From an uncultured Lachnospiraceae bacterium (GTDB lineage Bacteria; Bacillota; Clostridia; Lachnospirales; Lachnospiraceae): a stretch of DNA of 64,000 bases. This document shows, in pieces, positions 11,111-25,719 of this stretch. Each line of letters opens with the position of its first letter. Within the stretch, counting starts at the first letter, position 1. A model generated the notes under the pieces. The model was not told the DNA's origin, made no database searches, and saw only the letters and a list, made by a program, of their open reading frames with translations. The stretch covers positions 47,623 through 111,622 of the forward strand of contig CANOMQ010000009.1 of assembly GCA_947567595.1 (NCBI GenBank), read 5' to 3'. Made by a program: the position numbers and the translations under genes.

Positions 11111-14100
11111 TTAATACACTACTGCCTTCAATTTCACAACCAACGGTTTCGTCGTATTATCCGCGCCTTGAATATATACGGTGCACGGAACCGTGTATTT
11201 TTTGCCTGCCGTAACGGCTGCGCCATCCGAAAGCGATACATATACCGTATCATTCTCCGTGTTAAACGTTACTTTGTAATTCGTGTCAGCCGTCGTCACG
11301 TTGCTGATGGTATATCCGTTTTCTGCGTTCAGCTTATAAGATGCCCTGTGTCCTGCGTTTGATGTGCAGAGCGCACCGCCAAGCGTCATCACGGTTACCT
11401 TGGGCAGCTTGTTCGTAACGCTGACCGTAAATTTCGCGTCTGTTTTAACGGTCTTTCCATTGCTAAGTGTGAAAAGCAGAACGGGCTTGTATTTTGTCTT
11501 GGTATCCATTACCTTCCCCGTAACTGCCGTCAGGACAACCTTCCCGTCGTCCGCAAGCTTCACACGGAATAGTCCGCTATCCGGCGCTGTCTTATCCAGT
11601 CTTACATTCTTTATAGAAAGCGTCTCGGGCAGATTTTTCAATGCCGGCGTATAAACAATCGACGTTCCTTCCCTGTTTGCGAGGTTAATTTTTCCCTTTG
11701 CGGAAAGCTTTACCTCCGGCGCCTTGTCCGTGAGGGTAACAGAAATCGTCATACCTTTGACTGCCTGTGTTCCGACACTGCCGTCTACCATAATCTTGTA
11801 GCTGCCCTTTGCCGCACCGTTCTTTGGCGTTATTCTGATTTTTCCGTTACCAAGAACCTCCGCCTCGACTGCCTGTGCGTCCTTGTCCTTTGCCGGTTTT
11901 GCAGTAAGCTCCACAGGTACGCTGCTGCCTTTAATTCCTGCCGTGATGGTAACCGGTGCGGCATAGCCCTCGCTGATATTAATCGTCACCTTTGAAAAAT
12001 TCGCCCCAAGCTTTGCCTTGGAAAGGTCTAATACGGAAACCTTTCCTTTCAGCTCCATCTCAACGCCTGACGCCCATGTATTCTTTCTGATTTTCGCCTT
12101 ATAAGCGCCATTTTTTTCGCCCGTGTACGCCAGCCTGAGCAGACCTGCCTCCTGTGTAAGCGTCACACCGTCGCCCTCCGTTTTCGTAACCGTATAACCG
12201 TTCCAAGAAGCTTCTGCCTTTCCCTCATACAGCGCTACCAACGCACCCGCGTTCACGCCGCTTAAAAGGACAGCATCGCCAAGCTTTAAGGACGGCTTCT
12301 TATTTTGGACGGCTACGTTAATGTCGATTATCCATGTTCCGTAATCGCGTACCTTCACCTCTGCCTTTGCAGGATAGCTCTTTGCATCCTTATCAAGGTC
12401 AGCCGTTTTTGCTGTGAAAACAAGCGTTCCAGCCGCTTTATCATAGCTCTTCACCGTAAATTTCTCACTGCCCTTTGCCGCCGTGATACCCTCTATGATG
12501 TATTTGCTGCTTACGCTAAACTCCGCGCGCACGGTATCCGTACTGCTATAGGCAGCGTTTGGTTTCACGGTCTGCTTAAACTTCACGTTCTTAGCGGTAA
12601 TTTCAGTCACATCGATTGTCACGCCAAGCGTTTTCGGATATTCCGTTCCCGCTTCCGTCATCACTGTAAGTCCAAGCGTTACATTTGTCTTTTTGTCATA
12701 TTTGCTGCCGTTTGCAAGCCATATGAGCCATTCTCCGTTCTCGTCCGCCCCTGTTTTGAAATCCGCATTATCCGTCTCTACGGCTGTAATGTTATTTCCG
12801 TTTACCGCAACCAATCCAATCGGCGTATGCTGTGTACTGTTCTTATACACCGTAATCTTCTTGTTTTCCAGCTCCGGTTCACTGTCCGGTATTTCGCCTA
12901 CTATAATGTCCAGTGCTGTATCACCGGAAATGCCCTTTCCCGTACTGGTGTTTGTGACCGTCATCTGCAAAGAAAGCTTGTCGTTTCCTGAAACCTTTGC
13001 CGTTACCTTTTGGTTTGTTTCAGATGACAATGCAAGATTTGCACCCGACGTCCACTTCCAGTCAATGGTATAACCATTTGCGGGATTTTCGCCAACATAC
13101 GTATATGCACCGGTATAAAGCGCTTCTTTTCCGCTGTTTACAATACCCTTTCCGACAATCCGAACCGCGTCAAGCTTTGACACGTGCACGTCCAGGTACC
13201 GTTCAAAGGATACGTCGTCCTTATTATAAACCGCCATAAAATCCTGTACCGGATGCGAATTGTCCGCCGTCAGCTTCTGCGCAGGATTTTCCCAGCTCCA
13301 GCCCTCGGGCAGCTTAATATCCGCAAGCGTACTGTCCGCACCCTCAAGGAAGTATAATGTGCCAAGCTCCTTGACAATCTCGTCCTGCTCGTCATCGGAA
13401 ATCTCGTTCACAACCGTTATTGAACAAGACGCCGTAAATTCCGTACCGTCTAGCGCCGCCGTAATCACTGCGGTGCCTGCCTTTAACGCATCTGCCTCAA
13501 GCACAAGCCCTGTGCTTCCCGCAGGAATGGAAATGACACTCGTGTCAGAACTTGTCCATGTGATGCTGCTCTGCTGTGTCCATGCGCCCAAAGGCGTCAC
13601 AGATGCACTGATTTCCACCTTGCTGCCCGCTGACACGCTCTCGGGAGCCGATACACTGATACCGGTCGGTTTGAGCGGCTCTTTTGTAACGGTCACCGCA
13701 ACTGTTTTCGTTATTTTATCCGCCGTGACGCTGATATTTGTTGTACCCTCTGCAACCGCCGTCACAACCGCCTTGTTTTTATCGCTTTTATCCGCCGCGA
13801 CCGTTGCAACTTTCGTATTTTCTGATTTGAATGTCGGCGCAGTCTTATTTCCCGTAACCGTAATCGTGCCAACCTTTGCCGTGTCGCTGTCAAGGCTTAA
13901 GCTTAACTGCGTCGGAGATACCGTCCATGCGCTCGGCAAACCGCCTTTTATGCCAAGCGGTTCCGCGTCAACTGTGTATGTATATCCGTTCGAATCAACC
14001 GTAACAACCGTGTAGAGCACATCCGCATCGGGAAGGGCGTCTATCAAAGTCTGTTTAAAATAATACCATCCCGGATTGCTTGTTCCACTCTCCAAATCGC

Positions 14101-17100
14101 TTTTATTGATTGTAATGGATGCAACCTGTTCCGTATCATACGGCTTGTATATGGTTACCGTCACCGGAAATACAACCGTATTGTACATACCGATACCGAC
14201 CATCCTGTTGCTATCGCTCGTCCATGTAAATTTAGAGTCGGAAATCGGCTTGTATTTTCCCCGCTCATCCGCAAAGAATTTTGTTGTCTGGTCTGCCTTA
14301 TACGCCTCTCCAAGCGTATTGTGCGTCACCTTAATATAATAATATTTATACGCGTCGCTCTTCTTTAAACCTGTTACCTTTAATGCCACGGAATCAGCAT
14401 ATCTGTTCGACACCTCCGTTTTAAGTTCACTGACCGTATTCCCTAAAACATCTGTCAGTGCAACCGTAAAAGCATCCTTTTCCGTCACATTAATCGTATC
14501 AAACGATACCCGGAAGCTGTTGTCATCAATCCAGCTCGCATACGGTTCGTTGTCATACGTCATCACAAATTTTTCTGTCGGAAGTACCATAAATGTATAA
14601 GATGACAGTTTTTCATTCTGATAATTCAGTGTAATGGTATATTTTCCCTCTGCCAATGATGATACATCAAAAGTCATTCCCACCGTTGTGAGGGAAGCGC
14701 CATAATAGCTGTATGTCCATATTTTTTTCGCCTGCAATGGTGATGTAAGTGCTTCTCCTGTAAGCTCCGCCTGAAAATCTTTCGCACTGTCCGCATTGGT
14801 AAACGGAACCTCGGAATAAAAGTAAAAGCTCTTGTCGCCCGTAGCTGCTCCCACATATTTGGAGCCTGACCAATAGTTCGTTCTGTCGGCATTTACGGAA
14901 AAGGTTTCATGGTCACTGTAATCGCCGCATGTCATATCAAGCCTGTAATATCCTGCAGGCAGCTTATAAACCGCCCCCTCCTTCATCGGAACAAGGAACG
15001 AAATCGTTTCCGACACGGTTTCCGGATTTACTTCAATGGTTTCAACGACATTCTTTTGGGAGCTTGCATCATCCCACGAATTGTACCGTGCAAACCGAAA
15101 TGCCACGTTCTCCCGTTTCAAATTCGAGGTAACGCCGGTTTCAACCTTGTTGGACACATCATTATAAGCGCAGTAATAAATTCCCTGCGAAACATACGCA
15201 GTAAACGTATCGTTATCGAAAATGACTTCATATCCGTCCTTCGGCGTCACTTTCACGGAAACGCTGTTTCCTTCTTTTGGCGTCCATGTATCCGCTTTCC
15301 GGAACTTGACAATATAACCCTCCGAGGTTTCCTTCCTATTGATATATTCCGCCGTCTGCTGCACTCCCTCATAGGTAAACGCATAATCAAGCTTTGCTGC
15401 GTCAAATCCAGTGCCCTTTACCGACACATAGAAATAATCTCCCGTGCTGTCATAGTCGTAACCAATATCTCCACCTGTAACAAACGCTTTATCAATAATC
15501 TCCACAACACCCGGCAGCACTTCTTCCGTTTTGTCATCGTAGACAACGCGCAAATCATATGTACCGGCATCCGGGCTTTGGTACTTTATGCATTCAAGAC
15601 CGACAGAATTTTGGTTAACCTCCAATCCGCCCAGATTAATACTGCTGTTGCTCAGCGTTTTATATCGGTATTCATTGCCTGATGGATAATAATTGATATC
15701 TAAATCCATCGCAATAATACTATCGCCCTTCTGCATATATGCGGCGGATACCGGTTTATCACTGTATACACTTAAGTAATAAGAGCCCTGTCGCGCATTA
15801 AACCGATAAGGCGTTTTTTCAAGATAAGTTCCGCCCTCTTCCATTTTAAATGTTAAAGTTTTATCAACCTTCTTTTCCTCTTTTTCGTACATCTCGACAG
15901 TCAGCGTATGGTCTCCAACCGCAATTCCGGTGTCTTTATTGCACTGAATTTTTTCGCCGGAACCCCATACTGTATCATTAAAAGATACCGCAGTCCCATC
16001 TACCGTATATCGGAACGTATACGGAAGTCCTGTCTTATAGCCCTTCACTTTCACCAGCAGAGGGCTCTTTCCTGCTCTCTGATAATAGGTTTCCTCCGCA
16101 ATGACCTGCAATCCTTTATCACGCTGCGAAGACTGTGTATCATTGGAAAGCGTTACACCCTCCGGAAGCTTTGTAGAGACAGTCTCAAATTCTGCTGCCG
16201 GTATTAAGTTTTCCTTTAAGTATACAGAACGCAGACTTGCATTTTTTGACAAATCCGGTATCTTTGTCAGTTCATTTCCGGTAAGCTCCAATGAACTCAA
16301 TGCTTTGAGCTTTGACCAATCTACCACTGGAGTATCGGAAATTTCGTTATTTTCTAGATTAAGTGATGTAAGCTCTGTTAAAAGCTCAATACCTGTTAAG
16401 TTTGTTATCGCCGCTGTATCAAAATCTCTGCGATTCGCATATAACGAAGTAATCTTCTCAAGCTGAGCCGTTGTTACTGTCGTTGCATCACTGCCAAGAT
16501 TTGCCCCCTTTACAATCAGTTCTCTTAAACGTGCATCCGGGAATGTCGCTTCGAGCGGATGGGTCGCGTTTTCCTTCGTAGTAAAATCGTCCATTTCGAA
16601 TGTTTGTTCATATATATTTGAGGCATTGTTTGAACGTCCCTCAACATAAACAACAAGCTTCACTTTGTTGTATGTGGTTTTTTCTGTCAGACCGCTAAAC
16701 GTCAGCGTTTTTACCTTTGTTTTATCGTTTGAATAATAATATACGTATGTACTGATGTTTTTTTGTTCTGTTTCATCAGATGTATTGTAATACAGCTTTG
16801 CCCTAATTGTCTGGCTGCTGTCTCCAAGGCACATATCACCTGTATATGCCAAATCCGCATGAAATGTCGAAACACCTGTAGCTGCATTCGATACAGAAAA
16901 TGTCACATTCGGAATGTTTAGCCTTGTGTATTCCTCAGACAAATATTCCTTTTTGACAAATTTTCCTTCCGCATCCTTTTCTTCCAGTGTCTCTACCGCC
17001 TTGAACTGCACTTTGGATGTTTCCATCAGCAATGAATTACTGTCATAAAAGTTCTTGGATGTGCCCAATTTTGATTCAGCAAGCACTTTACCTGTGTTGT

Positions 17101-19294
17101 CTTTTTCCACAAGGTAAATTTCAAATTGTTCCGCGTAATCGGACGGTGTATAGGTACCGGAAGCATTGGTATGAAATCCGCTGAATTTTACGTTCATACC
17201 ACTGAAAACACCCTGTGCTGTTCCCTCTGTCGTCCGAAATGTCGTTGTGCCATAGATTGTGTTCTCATCAGAATACGAAGTTATTTTTACTTCATATTCC
17301 GTGTTCGGTGCAAGTTTTTTTAATTCCACGTCACTGCTGCCTGATTTATATAAGTAAATAGTGCCATCATTTGATTTCCACTCTGACTCAGAACCTTTTA
17401 CCCTGTAATATGCTTTAGCGTACACAGAACCGGAAGTGTTCCAATCAAAAAATTCGTCTGTATCCTTTAATGCGACAGTCATTGCCGCTGAACTTCCGCC
17501 AATGTCTTTTGTTTTAATATCCAATGATATGGCAGATGTATTTAATGTAAAATACTTTTCACCAACCGTTGTATTATTTTTACTGATTTTAACCTTTATC
17601 TCATAAGAAGCGCCTGCTCCCATATAATGCTCATCATATACAAGCCATTCTCCCTGATAATGATTTTCATTCGTAAGCTCAATACCGTTATATAAAGTGC
17701 TACCTGTTTGAGGTTTGCATTTAAGTTCTCTCCAAGAACCACTGTTTTCCTTAGCGTAGACGTTTACACGGTAGCTGTCCGAAGCTTCAGGTGTTTCGGC
17801 AAACTCTAGCTTCGCGTTCATCTTTGCGCCAAAGCTGAGCGGAGATAAGGTAATTACAGGCGTTATGCTGCCTTGTCCTGTAGAAACCTCCACTGTCTTC
17901 TCCACACCGTCAACAACGGCTTTCAATTCATATTCCGTTCCTTCATATAAATCCTGAATTGTTACCTGAACTGTGTAATTATTCCCTTTCATCAAGGTTC
18001 CCTGCGACTGCCTGTATTCATTTGCAGAGGCACCTTTCACACGGTAATACAACTTATATTGGAACGAATCTGACAACGCATCACTTTCGCTCAAACTTAT
18101 GGTATACTTTATCTTCGTTTTATCCGTTTCATCAGGCACCGCTTCAAATTGTAGTTTTTCGGCAATCTCTGATTCTTTTGTCGTAAAGGTTATATTTTCA
18201 AGGTTTTTCCTTAAATCTTTATTATATTGTTTACCTTCTGCAACCCATATCGGCATAGAGTATTCTTTCCCTGCTTTCAAATCGGATAATGAAATAGTAA
18301 CAGTACACTCCTTGGGTTCAGACGCAGGTTTAATTGAACCAGGAGTAGAAATTATCTCTTTTACACTTCCCGAAATGTCCTCATATTTTGTCCCTGCATA
18401 CAAATATGCGAAAGAAGATTCTAAACTTCCATTCGTATATAGTCCTGCATAATTGGTAAAGTTTACCTTAATGTCCGCTGAATTTGCCGTAATATTTTCA
18501 ACAGATACAGATGTATCAAATTTATAATCTGTTGTTGTAATCTCTTTCGTATCATATATCTTTGCATCATCGTTATTACTTTCTTTTAACAACAGCTCAT
18601 ATGTAGTATTTGGTTTTGTGCCATAGAGCACAACTCTATCGGAGGTACTGCTTACGTACCCTCTTTCATATTCCTGTGTTCCTTTTTCTCCCCAATAAAC
18701 ATAATAGGACTTGGACGTACTACTCTCAAGTTCAAGTACAATATAATAACCGCCCTCCTGCACGTTCTTAAACGATGCAGTCACAATCTCGCTGTCCTCC
18801 TGATTGACAGCCGTTTCGTCCATGTCTGTTTCTTCCGTCATGCTTTCCGTCTGCACCTGTGTCGGTTCCGAAGACGCCTCTTGCGTCTGCGCCTCGGTTT
18901 CCGTCATCTGCTGCGTTTCCTGCACTTCTTCTGACGGTTCCGCTATCGCGTCTGTCTTTGTTTCCTCCGTTGGCGATACTGTTTTTGACTCTGACGCCGT
19001 TTCCTGCTCCTGCGTCTCGTCCGTTCCTGCTGCCTGCGTTGTTTCCGGTTCTCCCTCCGCCGTTTTGGTCTCCTGAACGGTTTCCTGCCTTTCGGCAGTT
19101 TCCGTTTCCGTAATATCTGACCGTCCTGTCTCCTCCTCAATCTGCGCGGGCGAATCGTTATACCCCCCCCCCGCATCATTAACAGTTTCTTCCATTGCGC
19201 TTACTGCCTGTTCCTCTGCCGCAATCCCCGTCACCGGAAGACTTGTGGCAAGCAGACAGCCGCATAGTAAAATAGATAGCACTCTGCGAACCAT
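11111..19294 (-). CDS. Giant secreted surface protein (2727 aa) with LRR and Big_2-type Ig domains
   Basis: A signal peptide (residues 1-25) is followed by a Thr/Glu-rich low-complexity linker (~50-168), a probable stalk. Then come many fibronectin/Ig-like beta-sandwich units, a leucine-rich segment at ~920-1050 (motifs LTSLNLENNEIS, LSSLELTGNELT) and further Ig-like units. Two Big_2-like domains lie at ~1790-1960, and repeated beta-sandwich modules run to the C terminus. No LPXTG motif or C-terminal membrane anchor is seen, so attachment may be non-covalent or the protein may be released. Adhesion or surface-layer function is inferred. A G10 tract at codons 41-44 can change the reading frame. 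The gene has its own promoter and terminator. Confidence 0.85.
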   Translation of the reverse strand: MVRRVLSILLCGCLLATSLPVTGIAAEEQAVSAMEETVNDAGGGYNDSPAQIEEETGRSDITETETAERQETVQETKTAEGEPETTQAAGTDETQEQETASESKTVSPTEETKTDAIAEPSEEVQETQQMTETEAQTQEASSEPTQVQTESMTEETDMDETAVNQEDSEIVTASFKNVQEGGYYIVLELESSTSKSYYVYWGEKGTQEYERGYVSSTSDRVVLYGTKPNTTYELLLKESNNDDAKIYDTKEITTTDYKFDTSVSVENITANSADIKVNFTNYAGLYTNGSLESSFAYLYAGTKYEDISGSVKEIISTPGSIKPASEPKECTVTISLSDLKAGKEYSMPIWVAEGKQYNKDLRKNLENITFTTKESEIAEKLQFEAVPDETDKTKIKYTISLSESDALSDSFQYKLYYRVKGASANEYRQSQGTLMKGNNYTVQVTIQDLYEGTEYELKAVVDGVEKTVEVSTGQGSITPVITLSPLSFGAKMNAKLEFAETPEASDSYRVNVYAKENSGSWRELKCKPQTGSTLYNGIELTNENHYQGEWLVYDEHYMGAGASYEIKVKISKNNTTVGEKYFTLNTSAISLDIKTKDIGGSSAAMTVALKDTDEFFDWNTSGSVYAKAYYRVKGSESEWKSNDGTIYLYKSGSSDVELKKLAPNTEYEVKITSYSDENTIYGTTTFRTTEGTAQGVFSGMNVKFSGFHTNASGTYTPSDYAEQFEIYLVEKDNTGKVLAESKLGTSKNFYDSNSLLMETSKVQFKAVETLEEKDAEGKFVKKEYLSEEYTRLNIPNVTFSVSNAATGVSTFHADLAYTGDMCLGDSSQTIRAKLYYNTSDETEQKNISTYVYYYSNDKTKVKTLTFSGLTEKTTYNKVKLVVYVEGRSNNASNIYEQTFEMDDFTTKENATHPLEATFPDARLRELIVKGANLGSDATTVTTAQLEKITSLYANRRDFDTAAITNLTGIELLTELTSLNLENNEISDTPVVDWSKLKALSSLELTGNELTKIPDLSKNASLRSVYLKENLIPAAEFETVSTKLPEGVTLSNDTQSSQRDKGLQVIAEETYYQRAGKSPLLVKVKGYKTGLPYTFRYTVDGTAVSFNDTVWGSGEKIQCNKDTGIAVGDHTLTVEMYEKEEKKVDKTLTFKMEEGGTYLEKTPYRFNARQGSYYLSVYSDKPVSAAYMQKGDSIIAMDLDINYYPSGNEYRYKTLSNSSINLGGLEVNQNSVGLECIKYQSPDAGTYDLRVVYDDKTEEVLPGVVEIIDKAFVTGGDIGYDYDSTGDYFYVSVKGTGFDAAKLDYAFTYEGVQQTAEYINRKETSEGYIVKFRKADTWTPKEGNSVSVKVTPKDGYEVIFDNDTFTAYVSQGIYYCAYNDVSNKVETGVTSNLKRENVAFRFARYNSWDDASSQKNVVETIEVNPETVSETISFLVPMKEGAVYKLPAGYYRLDMTCGDYSDHETFSVNADRTNYWSGSKYVGAATGDKSFYFYSEVPFTNADSAKDFQAELTGEALTSPLQAKKIWTYSYYGASLTTVGMTFDVSSLAEGKYTITLNYQNEKLSSYTFMVLPTEKFVMTYDNEPYASWIDDNSFRVSFDTINVTEKDAFTVALTDVLGNTVSELKTEVSNRYADSVALKVTGLKKSDAYKYYYIKVTHNTLGEAYKADQTTKFFADERGKYKPISDSKFTWTSDSNRMVGIGMYNTVVFPVTVTIYKPYDTEQVASITINKSDLESGTSNPGWYYFKQTLIDALPDADVLYTVVTVDSNGYTYTVDAEPLGIKGGLPSAWTVSPTQLSLSLDSDTAKVGTITVTGNKTAPTFKSENTKVATVAADKSDKNKAVVTAVAEGTTNISVTADKITKTVAVTVTKEPLKPTGISVSAPESVSAGSKVEISASVTPLGAWTQQSSITWTSSDTSVISIPAGSTGLVLEADALKAGTAVITAALDGTEFTASCSITVVNEISDDEQDEIVKELGTLYFLEGADSTLADIKLPEGWSWENPAQKLTADNSHPVQDFMAVYNKDDVSFERYLDVHVSKLDAVRIVGKGIVNSGKEALYTGAYTYVGENPANGYTIDWKWTSGANLALSSETNQKVTAKVSGNDKLSLQMTVTNTSTGKGISGDTALDIIVGEIPDSEPELENKKITVYKNSTQHTPIGLVAVNGNNITAVETDNADFKTGADENGEWLIWLANGSKYDKKTNVTLGLTVMTEAGTEYPKTLGVTIDVTEITAKNVKFKQTVKPNAAYSSTDTVRAEFSVSSKYIIEGITAAKGSEKFTVKSYDKAAGTLVFTAKTADLDKDAKSYPAKAEVKVRDYGTWIIDINVAVQNKKPSLKLGDAVLLSGVNAGALVALYEGKAEASWNGYTVTKTEGDGVTLTQEAGLLRLAYTGEKNGAYKAKIRKNTWASGVEMELKGKVSVLDLSKAKLGANFSKVTINISEGYAAPVTITAGIKGSSVPVELTAKPAKDKDAQAVEAEVLGNGKIRITPKNGAAKGSYKIMVDGSVGTQAVKGMTISVTLTDKAPEVKLSAKGKINLANREGTSIVYTPALKNLPETLSIKNVRLDKTAPDSGLFRVKLADDGKVVLTAVTGKVMDTKTKYKPVLLFTLSNGKTVKTDAKFTVSVTNKLPKVTVMTLGGALCTSNAGHRASYKLNAENGYTISNVTTADTNYKVTFNTENDTVYVSLSDGAAVTAGKKYTVPCTVYIQGADNTTKPLVVKLKAVVY
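19163..19172 (-). repeat. Homopolymeric G10 tract (C10 on plus strand) in the surface-protein coding region
   Basis: Ten consecutive C on the plus strand read as GCG GGG GGG GGG on the coding strand (Ala41-Gly44), shortly after the signal peptide. A gain or loss of one or two bases would cause early truncation. Tracts of this length and position are typical slipped-strand phase-variation switches. Confidence 0.9.
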
Positions 19295-19659: not shown

Positions 19660-19711
19660 AATAAAAAGAACACACACCGCGCATTTATCATATGCACAGT
19701 GTGCGTCCTTT
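19660..19711 (-). terminator. Intrinsic terminator of the opp operon
   Basis: On the minus strand a 12-bp stem (with G-U pairs) starts with AAGGACGCACAC and is followed by a T-rich run. It lies 25 bases past the oppA stop codon. Confidence 0.8.
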
Positions 19712-19736: not shown

Positions 19737-21551
19737 TTATCTGCCAAACTGGCAGTCATTGTTGCCTGACGCTGTTGTCCACATCTCAAGCATGTTAATC
19801 GGATCATTAAAGTCTGCAAGCCAGCCGTTACGTGCAATGTCATAATTGCCAACTTTTCTCTCGTTCAAAAATACATTCCAGTCTACCGTCTTGATTGTCA
19901 TGTTAATTCCGATAAAGCCGAAATCCTGCTGCAGCGCCTCTGCGATTGCCACGTGTGTTGTGGTATCGTTTGTGAGATACTCAAACGAAATCGGTGTAGA
20001 ATCAGAAAGTACGCCGTCATCTGTAAACTCATAGCCTGCAAACTTTAAGAGCTCGATTGCCTCCTCAACGTTCTCATCAAGCGCCTCAGGATCATAGTAG
20101 CCTGCCGTCGCCTCGTTCGGATACGTATATGCGTCGTCGTTCTCCTTGAAGATACCGCCGTTACCGTCAGCCATTCCTGCCGGAACAAATGTATTTGCCG
20201 GCTTCTGTCCTGTCTGTCCGATATTCTCCGCAATGTAGTCACGGTCAACCAAAAGTGCAAACGCACGTCTCATCGCATTTGCCTGTGCAGGCGTCTTATC
20301 TGCAAAGAGGTCGCTCTTTACGTTAAAGCCTACATAGTATGTTCCGATTTGGTCAATCGTATGGAATTCCGGATTGCCTAAAAGTGTCTGAATTTCGTCT
20401 GTCGGAATGGTATCCGCTACAAAGTCAAGGTCTCCTGCATTGTATGCCGCAAAAACTGCCGTATCGTCTGCGCTCAGCATGAACTGAAGCTTTTCAGTCT
20501 TCACTTCGTCCGCTCTGTGATAGTTCGGATTCTTTACATATGTCATAGACTCGTCATGTGTCCAAGATTCCAAAGTATACGCACCGTTTGAAACAAAGCC
20601 TGCCTCCTGGCACCATGCGCCGGGATTTGTCTGCCAATCCGCCGCTGCCTCTACCTCGCTCTGCTTTACGGGATAGTAAGCAGGGAATGCACAAAGGTCA
20701 AGGAAGTACGGACAGGGAGCAACCAGTTCCACCGTGATAGACTGCGCATCTTCGCTTGCCGTTACTGCAAGCGTACCGTCATCGTTGTGCTTGATTGCGT
20801 CAAACATGTAAAAATAATCTGCTGCCGTTTCCTCCGCAACAGCACGGTTCCATGCATAAACAAAATCATTTGCATTTAATTCGGAACCGTCTGACCACTT
20901 TAAGTCAGGGAGCAAATTAAAGGTATATGTCAAGCCGTCGTCGCTAACCGTATAATCCGCAGCAAGGTCGGGAACAACATTCGCATCCTCATCATAGGTG
21001 AAAAGACCTGAAAAGCTGTTTACCGCAAGACACGCACCGTCAACCGTTGTATTCAGCGCGGGATCAAGCTTATCCGGCTCTGACGCCTGATTTAGCCGAA
21101 GCGTATCACCCTCTGTCTCCGCAAACATCCAATACTTAAATCCGTAAGCATTTGCATACGTTCCTGACACATAAGGTTTCTGTAAATACATTACATTGTA
21201 GTAATAAATCGGCAGGATTGCGCCTGTCTCCATAATCATATCCTCAGCCTTGTGCATCAGCGCCTCGCGCTCCACAAAGTCTGTCGTTGTTCTGATTTCA
21301 TTAATTAATTCGTCATATTCACCCCAGTTTGCAGGGTCTACTGCGTTCTCTGCGTCTACCGCCGCGTCCGTTGAATCTGCATCTCCCGCCGCATTGTCCG
21401 CGCTTGGTTCCGCTCCGTCCTGTGCCTGCGTTTCTGCCGGCGTATCCACTGCATTGTCAGCCGCGGGCGCATCATTTGAGCCGCATGCTGTCAATGACCC
21501 CATTGCCATCGCAAGTGCAAGGCAAAGAGCCAATACCTGTTTCTTTTTCAT
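19737..21551 (-). CDS. oppA: Oligopeptide-binding lipoprotein, apparently circularly permuted
   Basis: A 604-residue SBP_bac_5 lipoprotein with lipobox SLTAC (Cys23) and an acidic Ala-rich linker to ~residue 72. Residues 76-144 (EYDELINEI, ALMHKAEDMI, PIYYYN, LQKPYVSG, GFKYWMF) match the segment that normally ends OppA proteins. The usual N-terminal region (DTLRLNQASEPDKLDPAL, residue ~149 on) follows directly. The protein stops after NNDCQFGR, exactly where that missing end would start. It is therefore a circular permutation, with the old C terminus moved behind the signal peptide. It is the last gene of the opp operon, after a 134-base gap that may hold an internal promoter. Function as a peptide receptor is likely. 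Confidence 0.9.
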   Translation of the reverse strand: MKKKQVLALCLALAMAMGSLTACGSNDAPAADNAVDTPAETQAQDGAEPSADNAAGDADSTDAAVDAENAVDPANWGEYDELINEIRTTTDFVEREALMHKAEDMIMETGAILPIYYYNVMYLQKPYVSGTYANAYGFKYWMFAETEGDTLRLNQASEPDKLDPALNTTVDGACLAVNSFSGLFTYDEDANVVPDLAADYTVSDDGLTYTFNLLPDLKWSDGSELNANDFVYAWNRAVAEETAADYFYMFDAIKHNDDGTLAVTASEDAQSITVELVAPCPYFLDLCAFPAYYPVKQSEVEAAADWQTNPGAWCQEAGFVSNGAYTLESWTHDESMTYVKNPNYHRADEVKTEKLQFMLSADDTAVFAAYNAGDLDFVADTIPTDEIQTLLGNPEFHTIDQIGTYYVGFNVKSDLFADKTPAQANAMRRAFALLVDRDYIAENIGQTGQKPANTFVPAGMADGNGGIFKENDDAYTYPNEATAGYYDPEALDENVEEAIELLKFAGYEFTDDGVLSDSTPISFEYLTNDTTTHVAIAEALQQDFGFIGINMTIKTVDWNVFLNERKVGNYDIARNGWLADFNDPINMLEMWTTASGNNDCQFGR

Positions 21552-21685: not shown

Positions 21686-22648
21686 TTACCGATTATGACA
21701 TGCCACCATATGTCCGCCGCCCTTATCGGTAAGCGTCGGGCAAACCTCCGCGCACTTGTCTGTCGCAAAACGGCATCTCGTACGGAACGCACAGCCTGTC
21801 GGCATATTCATCGGACTCGGCACATCGCCGGAAAGCACAATTCTTTGACTCTGCTTTGCCTGAATCGGGTCAGGAATGGGCACGGCGCTCAAAAGCGATT
21901 CCGTGTACGGATGAATGGGATGCTCGTACACCTCGTCCGCATCGCCAATCTCCACAACCTTTCCAAGATACATCACCGCAATTCTGTTGGAAATATGTCT
22001 TACCACCAGCAAATCGTGGGCGATAAACAGATACGCCACGCCAAGCTTTGCCTGCAAATCCTCAAACATATTGATAACCTGCGCCTGAATGGAAACGTCA
22101 AGCGCACTTACCGCCTCATCACAGACGATAAACTGCGGCTTTACCGCCAAGGCACGCGCAATTCCGATACGCTGTCTCTGACCGCCCGAAAACTCATGCG
22201 CATAACGCGTCGCGTGCTCGGCGTTCAAGCCCACAAGCTCCATTAATCCTAAAATCTTCTCACGCCGCTCGTTCTTATTGGAATACATCTTATGTACGTC
22301 AAGAGGCTCCCCGATAATATCCTCCACCGTCATACGTGGATTTAGGGAAGAATACGGGTCTTGGAACACCATCTGCATATTTTTGCGGTGCTCCGCCATA
22401 TTTTTTGCGGTAATCTCCTCACCGTTAAATTTCACCGTGCCTGATGTCGGCTCATAAAGCCGCAAAAGCGTACGTCCAACCGTCGTCTTTCCGCAGCCCG
22501 ACTCGCCCACAAGCCCTAACGTCTCGCCCGGCTTAATATGAAATGTAACACCGTCCACCGCTTTGAGGGGCGTGGTTTTAAAAAATCCTGTCTTAATCGG
22601 GAAGTACTGCTTTAAGTCCTCCACCTCAATCAAATATTCACTGCTCAT
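21686..22648 (-). CDS. oppF: Oligopeptide ABC transporter ATP-binding protein OppF
   Basis: A 320-residue ATPase. Walker A GLVGESGCGKTTVGRT, the signature FSGGQRQRIGIARAL and Walker B FIVCDEAVSALD are all intact. The C-terminal oligopeptide/dipeptide extension with cysteines (TGCAFRTRC, CAEVCP) is present, as in OppF/DppF, where it may bind an iron-sulfur cluster. The start overlaps the OppD stop by 4 bases (ATGA). It pairs with OppD to power peptide uptake. Opp and Dpp cannot be separated by sequence alone. Confidence 0.94.
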   Translation of the reverse strand: MSSEYLIEVEDLKQYFPIKTGFFKTTPLKAVDGVTFHIKPGETLGLVGESGCGKTTVGRTLLRLYEPTSGTVKFNGEEITAKNMAEHRKNMQMVFQDPYSSLNPRMTVEDIIGEPLDVHKMYSNKNERREKILGLMELVGLNAEHATRYAHEFSGGQRQRIGIARALAVKPQFIVCDEAVSALDVSIQAQVINMFEDLQAKLGVAYLFIAHDLLVVRHISNRIAVMYLGKVVEIGDADEVYEHPIHPYTESLLSAVPIPDPIQAKQSQRIVLSGDVPSPMNMPTGCAFRTRCRFATDKCAEVCPTLTDKGGGHMVACHNR

Positions 22649-23667
22649 GACTGTCCCCCCTCCTGCGTGCTTGTGCCAAGTGTTCCATCTTTCAACTTTT
22701 TAAACGCAAGCCAGCACGACGCGAAATGTCCGTCGGGCATTTGCACCTGTGGCGGAATTTCCGTCAGACAGATTTTCATCGCCTCGTCGCACCGCGTACA
22801 AAACGCGCAGCCCTTTGGCATATTCAACAGGTTAATCGGCGTACCCGCAATCGGGACAAGCCGCTCCTTGCTGCCGTCCGCCTTGGGAACGGAACGCAGC
22901 AATCCCTTCGTGTACTCGTGTCCCGGACGGTAGAAAATATCCTCCGCCGTTCCGCGCTCGCACACGCGTCCGCCGTACATGACAATAATCTCGTCGCACA
23001 TATCCGCAATCACGCCCAAATCGTGCGTTACCATAATAATCGCCATGCCAAGCTTTTTCTGCAAAGACTGCATCAGCTCCAAAATCTGCGCCTGAATGGT
23101 CACGTCAAGCGCCGTCGTCGGCTCGTCCGCAATCAGAATATCCGGCTCGCACGCAAGCGCCATCGCAATCATCACACGCTGACGCATACCGCCCGAAAGC
23201 TCATGCGGATACTGCTTGATACGCTTTTCGGGCTCATTCACGCCGACAAGCTCCAGCATTTCCACCGCACGCTCCTTCGCCTGCTGTTTGTTTTTATCCG
23301 TATGGAGCAAAATCGCCTCCATCAACTGGTTTCCTATCGTAAATACAGGGTTCAGGCTGGTCATCGGATCTTGGAAGATAATGCTGCAGCACTTTCCCCT
23401 GAAATTTTTCATCTGTTTTTTGTCAAATTTCGTAATATCCTCGCCGCGGTAGAGCACCTCGCCGCTCACAATGCGCCCTGTTGACGCCAAAATCTGCATA
23501 ATCGAGTACGCCGTAACGCTCTTTCCCGAGCCCGACTCACCCACGATACCGAGGATTTTTCCGGGCGCCAGATTAAAGTTCACACCGTTTACCGCCTTGA
23601 CCTCACCCGACTCCGTAAAAAATGATGTATGTAAATCCTTTACCTGTAAAATGTATTCTTCGCTCAT
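22645..23667 (-). CDS. oppD: Oligopeptide ABC transporter ATP-binding protein OppD
   Basis: A 340-residue ATPase with Walker A GIVGESGSGKSVTAYS, signature LSGGMRQRVMIAMAL, Walker B ILIADEPTTALD and the cysteine-containing C-terminal domain (KGCAFCTRC). I use the ATG at 23667 because a GGAGG site precedes it; a TTG at 23688 would place that site inside the gene. It is coupled to oppF by an ATGA overlap. Confidence 0.94.
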   Translation of the reverse strand: MSEEYILQVKDLHTSFFTESGEVKAVNGVNFNLAPGKILGIVGESGSGKSVTAYSIMQILASTGRIVSGEVLYRGEDITKFDKKQMKNFRGKCCSIIFQDPMTSLNPVFTIGNQLMEAILLHTDKNKQQAKERAVEMLELVGVNEPEKRIKQYPHELSGGMRQRVMIAMALACEPDILIADEPTTALDVTIQAQILELMQSLQKKLGMAIIMVTHDLGVIADMCDEIIVMYGGRVCERGTAEDIFYRPGHEYTKGLLRSVPKADGSKERLVPIAGTPINLLNMPKGCAFCTRCDEAMKICLTEIPPQVQMPDGHFASCWLAFKKLKDGTLGTSTQEGGQS

Positions 23668-23700
23668 TTTCAGCCTCCATTTATTCAAACATACGTTCCT

Positions 23701-24792
23701 TTATTTCTTGAGTTTCGGATCAAACGCGTCGCGCAAGCCGTCGCCAAGCAGGTTGAGCGAAAGCACAATCAGACAAATCACCACCGACGGGAATATCAGC
23801 TTGTACGGATAGCTCTGAAGTCCCTCCCTCGCCGAATTTGCAAGGCTGCCAAGTGACGGCATCGGCGCCGCCACACCAAGACCGATAAAGCTTAAATAAC
23901 TCTCCGTAAAGATTGCCGACGGAATTTGCAGCGCAGTCGAAATAATGATAACGCTGATACAGTTTGGAATAATATGCTTTGCGATAATCCTGCCGGTCTT
24001 TGCACCCGTCGCCTTTGCCGCAAGCACATATTCGTTATTTTTAATCGTCAAAATCTGTCCGCGCACCAGACGCGACATGCTTACCCAATATAAAAGACCA
24101 TACACGATAAACAGGGAAATCATGTTGACACCAAGGCTTTGGAGCGCCGTGCCCTCAAGCTTTTCGGCAAGCGTTTCATTTAAAACCACCGACAAAAGAA
24201 TGATGACAAGCATGTCCGGCAGCGAATAGATAATATCCACAATACGCTGCATAATCAAATCGACCTTGCCGCCCATGTACCCCGAAATACTACCATAGAG
24301 CAAGCCGATAATCAAGACCAAAATACTGGCAAACAGTCCGACCGCAAGCGATACCCGCGTACCGTATACCACGCGGATAAAGTAGTCGCGGCACTGTGCG
24401 TCCGTTCCCATGATATGCGGAAAGACCTCGCCGCCCTCCGCGATATATTCCAGCTCCTTCTCCGAATACTCGAACGGCTTTAGGTTTTTCGCCGTCTTGT
24501 CACGCTTTCCGTTGACGCTGATAATCTGCGAATAGCTGTACGGCACGATATGCGGCGCGACGATAATCACACTCATAATGATAATCAGCACAATGATACT
24601 GCCGACGGCAAGCGGATTTTTCATCAGCTTTTTCATACCGTCCTTAAAAAACGTCGTGGACTCGCTCATCACGTCCTGCTGTTTTTTCTCCTCGTCCGTC
24701 GCTTTCTCAAAAACGGCGTCGTCAAAATTAAATTTCGATAAATCGACCTGTGCACTCAGCACATTTCTTTTTAATGTGTTCTGCTCTGCCAT
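23701..24792 (-). CDS. oppC: Oligopeptide ABC transporter permease OppC
   Basis: A 363-residue membrane protein. A ~75-residue cytoplasmic N-terminal region leads to a first helix (VGSIIVLIIIMSVIIVAP). A periplasmic-side segment then contains GTDAQCRDYFIRVVYGTRVSL, whose G-T-D-x-x-x-R-D pattern is typical of OppC. Five further helices follow, with the EAA-type loop AAKATGAKTGRIIAKHIIPN. It sits between oppB and oppD on one transcript. Confidence 0.93.
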   Translation of the reverse strand: MAEQNTLKRNVLSAQVDLSKFNFDDAVFEKATDEEKKQQDVMSESTTFFKDGMKKLMKNPLAVGSIIVLIIIMSVIIVAPHIVPYSYSQIISVNGKRDKTAKNLKPFEYSEKELEYIAEGGEVFPHIMGTDAQCRDYFIRVVYGTRVSLAVGLFASILVLIIGLLYGSISGYMGGKVDLIMQRIVDIIYSLPDMLVIILLSVVLNETLAEKLEGTALQSLGVNMISLFIVYGLLYWVSMSRLVRGQILTIKNNEYVLAAKATGAKTGRIIAKHIIPNCISVIIISTALQIPSAIFTESYLSFIGLGVAAPMPSLGSLANSAREGLQSYPYKLIFPSVVICLIVLSLNLLGDGLRDAFDPKLKK

Positions 24793-24807: not shown

Positions 24808-25719
24808 TTAATCCAGTTTAATTCTCGGATCAACAATGCTGTAAATAATGTCCGTAATCAAATTCATTGTCACCATGATAATCGCAAGGAACATCGTCGT
24901 TCCCATAATCATCGTGTAATCGCGGTTCGTAATGCTGGAAACAAATTTGGTGCCAAGTCCGCCGATTGTGAAAATATTCTCAACCACAAGGCTGCCTGTC
25001 AGTATGTACGCAAGCATCGGTCCAAAATATGTAATAACCGGAATGACCGCGTTTCTGAGCGCATGCTTGAAAATCACCTTCCAGCCCGCCACGCCCTTCG
25101 CGTTCGCCGTGCGGACATAATCCTGACCAAGCGCGTCAAGCATACTCGTCTTTGTCAGACGCGTGATGTACGCCATCGGATAAAGCGCAAGCGCAATCAC
25201 GGGAAGGACATAATGCGTCTTCTCGGGGTCAAACACAGGCGCCCATTTTAATTGAATACAGAAAACATAAAGCAACAGCGTCGCAAGCACAAAGCTTGGA
25301 ACTGCGGTAAAAAGCGTGGTGATAAAGACAATGAAACGGTCTATGAATGTGTTTCTTTTAAGCGCCGCGATACTGCCTAAAATCAAGCCCACAATCGCCG
25401 CCGTAAGCGCCGCCATGCCGCCAAGCTTCGCGGAAATCGGGAACGACTCACCAATGACTGTGGCAATGCTTCTGCCCGTTTTTAAAGAAACACCCAAGTC
25501 TCCATGAAGGAAATTTTTGATATAGATAATGAACTGCTCGCCGACAGGCTTATCGAGGTTGTATCGCGCCTCCAAAACCTTTTTGACCGCCTCACTCGGC
25601 GCCTTCTCGGAGGCGAACGGCCCGCCGGGGATTGCATTCATGGTAAAGAACGTAATCGCGGCGATGATAAACACTGTAGCGACTGCAAGAATTACTCGTT
25701 TGACGATGTATCGGAACAT
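24808..25719 (-). CDS. oppB: Oligopeptide ABC transporter permease OppB
   Basis: A 303-residue membrane protein with six predicted helices. It opens with FRYIVKRVILAVATVFIIAA and carries the permease loop YVRTANAKGVAGWKVIFKHA near residue 200 and GGLGTKFVSSITNRDY near the end, all typical of OppB. It is the first gene of the operon (oppB-C-D-F-A) and is read from the strong promoter at 25874-25902 through a ~150-base leader. Confidence 0.93.
   Translation of the reverse strand: MFRYIVKRVILAVATVFIIAAITFFTMNAIPGGPFASEKAPSEAVKKVLEARYNLDKPVGEQFIIYIKNFLHGDLGVSLKTGRSIATVIGESFPISAKLGGMAALTAAIVGLILGSIAALKRNTFIDRFIVFITTLFTAVPSFVLATLLLYVFCIQLKWAPVFDPEKTHYVLPVIALALYPMAYITRLTKTSMLDALGQDYVRTANAKGVAGWKVIFKHALRNAVIPVITYFGPMLAYILTGSLVVENIFTIGGLGTKFVSSITNRDYTMIMGTTMFLAIIMVTMNLITDIIYSIVDPRIKLD

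Follow-up and report, generated by a model that had tools for sequence, protein, structure and literature searches.

The window analysed here, i.e. the whole stretch of 64,000 nucleotides of DNA from an uncultured Lachnospiraceae bacterium, carries an operon in the order oppB (24808..25719), oppC (23701..24792), oppD (22645..23688) and oppF (21686..22648), followed by a permuted binding-protein gene as the last gene (19737-21551; 604 amino acids, from the ORF list and its translation). All five genes are on the minus strand, and the names of the four opp genes come from reading and from the conserved gene set. A terminator-like hairpin with a T-run (20 pairs; 19665..19711, minus strand) lies 3' of the binding-protein gene; it is a pattern match only, and the pattern gave 12 sites in the region versus 8.1 expected. 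Just downstream of the operon (11111-19294, minus strand) a 2727-amino-acid protein with a signal-like start is encoded, with weak matches to LRR and bacterial Ig-like (Big_2) models, which score under the curated cut-offs.

The binding protein begins with a lipoprotein signal peptide that was recognised by eye (residues 1-23, lipobox LTAC with Cys23; 21483..21551), followed by a low-complexity linker (residues 24-75; 21327..21482) and by the displaced canonical C-terminal segment, located by phmmer and profiles (about residues 76-144; 21120..21326). A short junction of the old C-terminus with the old N-terminus, seen as a gap between profile matches (about residues 145-148; 21108..21119), leads into the canonical N-terminal and middle region, which was located by Pfam, phmmer and profiles (about residues 149-604; 19740..21107). 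This region includes W577-LA-D580 (19812..19823), read from the alignment as the docking motif for the peptide alpha-amine, and the new C-terminus NNDCQFGR (19740..19763); all of these features are on the minus strand.

The Pfam family SBP_bac_5 matched residues 191-598 (259 bits; cut-off 32.4). The NCBIfam OppA equivalog NF011684 scored 205 bits, below its curated cut-off of 947, with a best match at 148-601 and two stretches counted; the canonical-order relative L052 was matched in one stretch, 36 to 572, likewise below the cut-off (252 bits). The window protein's own genome gave five other matches, all of them distant, the longest with 32% identity over residues 159-598.

The window gene is the last member of an oppBCDF-linked set, and the order oppB-C-D-F-binding protein was found at 40 of 43 subfamily loci (the window, L176-L215, L234 and L235), permuted or canonical; the canonical-order orthologues occupy the same operon position as the permuted genes. 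The remaining three loci hold a part of it: L190, with the binding-protein gene before oppB, and L189 and L205, which are cut by contig ends. Opp genes were seen at 16 of the 18 outgroup loci (L216-L233) and not at L217 and L220 within the stretch examined. At L234 (genome G034), genes resembling oppC, oppD and oppF (39-55% identical) form a second set upstream of the opp operon.

Segment order in the window protein and its relatives

When the window protein was compared with PDB chains (phmmer), DppE (8ay0) was matched in two stretches in swapped order: residues 144-598 aligned with chain positions 16-444 (i-E 1.1e-50), and residues 72-138 with chain positions 444-512 (i-E 1.8e-7). The same two stretches were found in four other printed PDB alignments, with the short one weaker (i-E 0.01 for 8are, 0.002 for 3tcf, 0.002 for 9rd1 and 1.5 for 3o9p). 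A PDB profile search with alignment A1 reported stretches at E 1e-30 only and is uninformative on the short segment. A profile of the C-terminal segment, built from 19 canonical-order relatives, scored 84.2 bits at residues 78-146 (single-sequence E 2.3e-28); among 1000 shuffled versions of the window protein, the highest score was 6.8 bits. In a six-frame scan of the 64-kb window, the next best places of two C-terminal profiles scored only 7.2 and 4.9 bits, so that no second copy of the segment was found there; the remainder of the fold likewise had no further copy in the window. Both large OppA segments are present in the window protein, each once, and the protein ends right after NNDCQFGR, where the C-terminal segment starts in canonical relatives.

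The canonical linear segment order of the SBP_bac_5/cluster C proteins is therefore not followed, the C-terminal segment coming first; two aligned segments are swapped relative to the homologues, and the old termini are joined by a short linker. An earlier note, made from the letters of the window, had placed the end segment of OppA at residues 76-144 and the normal N-terminal region from about 149, with a stop at the point where the moved segment would begin and no leftover copy in the flanking DNA; each of these points was borne out, the separate alignment to OppA-type structures included. By sequence comparison, the window protein is a circular permutant of an OppA/DppE-type (SBP_bac_5) peptide-binding protein.

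The permuted order is common to 102 distinct genes, window included, and is conserved across many genera. Across 155 scored ORFs, in a count where genes fetched twice are counted twice, the segment order was CK (permuted) in 112, KC (canonical) in 37 and CKCK in two, and four were K-only, namely two distantly related paralogues, the latter half of a stop-cut gene and a truncated copy. Of these 102 genes, 90 have their stop exactly where the profile match ends (the NNDCQFGR site), 101 have Q[FLY]G[RK] as the last four residues at that end, and in 101 the two profile matches are 7-11 residues apart (18 in the remaining one). Low-complexity tails of 13-15 residues past the usual QFGR/QFGK end were seen in L105, L120 and L121, and are acidic in L105 and L121.

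All 80 loci kept from the genome contigs (the best 80 of 332 relatives) hold a permuted gene; as these are the nearest relatives, this share says nothing about frequency. In the window's own genus, nine of 38 genomes have a permuted gene, six further genomes match only through a canonical-order protein (about 40% identity), and 23 gave no match at E 1e-30. At E 1e-100 or better, 34 of 299 genomes drawn from the family matched (24 permuted, 10 canonical, by match ranges) and 19 of 391 from the class (3 permuted, 16 canonical); of 398 genomes from the phylum four matched, with the permuted form only in the window's own genome. With L044 as query (E 1e-140), 38 of 397 family genomes matched (26 permuted, 12 canonical); the two family draws overlap. 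Only few candidates per genome (3-4) were scored in these searches, for which reason a missing match is weak evidence.

An artefact of assembly or rearrangement in the window genome, one of the points on which the earlier note would have fallen, is excluded by the 102 distinct genes with the same order and by low dN/dS: against the near relatives L008 and L009, the moved segment gave dN/dS values of 0.15 and 0.08, and the rest of the protein 0.05 and 0.03 (for four relatives at a greater distance, the comparisons are partly saturated). The order also occurs in records not titled as MAGs, i.e. COE1 (L056) and Proteiniclasticum aestuarii (L084), and in the one-contig genomes G222 and G307, and nothing was found in favour of an artefact, to which we give almost no credence. 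The G307 gene (L049) is interrupted by a single in-frame TAG, for which a pseudogene, an error or recoding are all possible. As to whether the form is unique or clade-wide, a question raised in the same note, it proved clade-wide and labile, with canonical-order orthologues nested among the permuted genes.

Trees, direction of the changes and the loop site

Identity between the canonical-order orthologues (L050-L055 and others found later) and the permuted ones reaches 72%. From 142 distinct units, 76 were first selected, leaving out near-copies and distant paralogues, and nine long or distant rows, among them L133_P, were left out for a binding-protein tree of 67 rows. In this tree the canonical orthologues fall inside the permuted clade: L052 pairs with the permuted L044 at 100/100, and L050 and L054 group with six permuted rows at 100/100. 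A tree of OppBCDF only (49 rows, from 59 loci with at least two opp genes, out of 61 loci in all) gave the same mixed clades. An operon tree was computed for 49 of 71 loci; the rest were mainly near-copies or outgroups, and L272 was left out because its opp genes are only 29-54% identical. In the operon tree, five changes are forced by the starred branches, with a bootstrap range of 5-5.

A single permutation, with the nested canonical orthologues explained by tree error or recombination, would place all permuted rows in one clade. In AU tests, for which the groups were picked after the trees were seen, this clade was rejected on the binding-protein data (67 rows; dlnL 102, p 3e-16) and on the transporter data (49 rows; dlnL 285, p 3e-8), and none of 200 operon bootstrap trees had a single change. 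The permuted lineages L044/L189 and L266 are each represented by a single genome; with L189 and L266 removed, one permuted clade was still rejected on the operon data (p 5e-6). Several inner branches are unresolved, and the transporter and operon trees were computed with a simple model, which leaves some room for one permutation; we consider it very unlikely. Quick trees of both halves of the binding-protein gene keep the mixed clades (SH-aLRT 96 and 88 for one, 99 and 96 for the other), and recombination within the gene is not supported.

A further binding-protein tree of 68 rows was obtained by dropping 12 of the 67 rows and adding 11 new and two earlier ones. The L167-L173 group stands near its base on a long branch, and the two loci of this group join the G190 group in the transporter tree. 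Taken together, the trees support the view that the order has changed at least five times in this OppA subfamily, at one loop, with the oppBCDF set constant.

With canonical outgroups as the root, the best full trees can be explained by 5-6 changes when gains and losses are both permitted; gains alone require from 7 changes (transporter and operon trees) up to 10 (binding-protein tree). A history of five gains without loss is compatible with the operon data (p 0.435); a three-gain history was rejected on the transporter data (p 0.009) and not on the binding-protein data (p 0.176). The initial reading of L050-L055 as necessary reversions is weakened, since the three-gain (binding-protein) and five-gain (operon) histories fit.

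Two accounts of the direction can be given. All changes might be independent permutations of a canonical ancestor with a long loop, the canonical order never being regained; the five-gain fit would agree with this, as would L273, which is already long-looped at the site and in the operon tree is the canonical sister closest to the mixed clade, and against it stand the higher number of changes in the best full trees and the shared C-terminal end point of the permuted lineages, which would need to be hit each time. We regard this account as possible, with a probability a little short of even. Alternatively, chain order may be a freely switching trait of one operon-bound orthologue, rotated, returned to canonical and rotated once more, always at the same loop hot spot, the anchor shifting lobes each time and the transporter unchanged; we hold the chances of this bolder account to be evenly balanced. 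The changes would be repeated gains on the first account, and gains together with returns to the canonical order on the second.

At the switching site, the outgroup proteins are mostly short-looped, for example NNDAQWSNKEYDELI, and canonical members of the subfamily read for example QFGKDPSNTAAPDWTKYDELI, or are QFGK-DPSNTAAPDW-like. Permuted members end with QFGR, QFGK or similar, and many of the linkers before the segment end with AAPDW or KSSEAAPDW. Similar residues thus make up a loop in the canonical proteins and lie at both chain ends in the permuted ones; the linker of the window protein reads NAVDPANW at that place and is less similar. The canonical-order relative L273 (G087) has an even longer loop at the site, and as this long loop is already present, loop lengthening may have come first and made the site permissive.

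The order changes could have occurred through in-frame tandem duplication and subsequent trimming. Tandem fused genes are known in the family: at L109 (3668-7588) and L114 (3455-7441), from MAGs titled Chloroflexi and Anaerolineaceae, two permuted units are joined by a long low-complexity linker in one predicted lipoprotein, the product of which is perhaps a bivalent binding protein. Taken by itself, the central part of a fusion of this kind has the order of a canonical protein with a long loop. The fused genes sit inside a permuted lineage and are therefore not the original intermediates, and a partly trimmed intermediate with the segment at both ends was not found among the 155 ORFs. Neighbouring duplicate permuted genes were found at L133 (1926-5599), where the first copy has diverged and ends with NNFCFLGR, and at L102 (3949-6220), where the first copy is truncated.

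Docking motif, membrane anchor and comparison with known systems

W577 and D580 align with OppA chains and are invariant in the 60 permuted sequences of alignment A1, window included. The Trp/Asp motif by which relatives dock the alpha-amine of the peptide is thus present, its role being taken from these relatives. D580, which we take to correspond to Asp419 of Salmonella OppA, was matched to D501 of AliD and Asp431 of BbOppA4 by counting. As described in the parts of the papers seen, domain I of AliD is formed by residues 29-63, 191-296 and 583-617, domain II by 64-190 and domain III by 297-582 (PMC11192437); domain III of BbOppA4 comprises 286-503, and Asp431 docks the peptide (PMC5736914). 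Both terminal pieces of these relatives are assigned to domain I (PMC11192437, PMC5736914, in the parts seen).

In the permuted protein, the last ~70 residues of the canonical fold come first, after the signal peptide and linker, and the chain ends at an internal loop of the canonical relatives. As the old N- and C-terminal pieces are both parts of domain I and a short linker connects them, the fold would close as in OppA, with the packing of the moved segment judged by homology. The cut lies ~24 residues past the presumed docking residue D580, i.e. in domain III, as mapped by alignment end points and counting rather than by a residue-by-residue display of AliD and BbOppA4. A cut in domain III would place the lipid anchor on lobe 2, the domain that docks the peptide N-terminus, instead of lobe 1, and it is plausible that the tether has moved in this way; hinge dynamics, which the earlier note also raised, might be altered as well. 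If true, the membrane anchor passes from one lobe to the other at each order switch, with the transporter unchanged.

A loose pattern for the lipobox matched 83 of the 102 distinct permuted genes and not the other 19, hence the anchor may not be universal and some members may not be lipoproteins. In five members (L087, L088, L089, L092 and L095) the permuted segment follows almost directly after the signal peptide without a long linker, and the linker seems dispensable. The permuted protein would still trap peptides and hand them to OppBCDF. The invariance of the proposed docking residues, the retention with oppBCDF and the low dN/dS speak against the alternative that the permuted proteins have given up peptide binding and serve another role, which has in our judgement only a very small probability. 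A permuted peptide-binding lipoprotein of an Opp-type ABC importer, with at least five order changes at the same loop within the subfamily, is very probably what the window gene and its relatives encode.

Natural circular permutations are usually regarded as old, single events between distant proteins. Here, opposite orders exist in proteins that are up to 72% identical and belong to the same operon, so that the cost and benefit of chain order and lobe tethering can be tested with natural pairs. Since linear profile models omit the moved segment (the Pfam match covers only residues 191-598), similar switches may be overlooked elsewhere.

With the OppA/DppE/AliD-type proteins of cluster C (SBP_bac_5), the permuted protein shares the sequence of both segments, the docking motif, the lipoprotein signal and the Opp operon; it differs in segment order and in its new termini, which lie in a part aligned with domain III. 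Permuted binding proteins are known from other families, none was found described for SBP_bac_5 in our searches, and the switching seen here is unusually frequent. More precisely, no report of a permuted OppA/DppA protein was found among the literature matches listed, which covered few subscription journals. The chains of ProX and OpuAC, for example, are related by such a permutation. Among substrate-binding proteins, circular permutation is described for the glycine betaine-binding proteins, a different family, in which the permuted structures share <24% identity, as against up to 72% here (PMC2395249, in the part seen). CIRPIN, a database of permuted pairs, could contain a pair of the present kind (PMC12667903, in the part seen).

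A further parallel is Tp0684 (MglB-2) of Treponema pallidum, likewise a tethered substrate-binding protein with a circularly permuted topology, for which 'Type Ic / Cluster Bc' was proposed; it binds glucose with a conformational change, and the authors suggest that the permutation may have to do with tethering (PMC4990184, in the sections seen). Tp0684 differs in its glucose-binding cluster B fold, where the first three N-lobe strands of a relative come last, and in that the moved part leaves a weak sequence trace; switching within the same operon is not described in the sections seen (PMC4990184). As to the route, permutation by duplication is described for DNA methyltransferases and for saposin/swaposin, and tandem duplication followed by trimming is likewise the probable route here; unlike in those cases, as far as the part of the source seen goes, several switches would have taken place at one site within one operon-bound orthologous group (PMC3320104).
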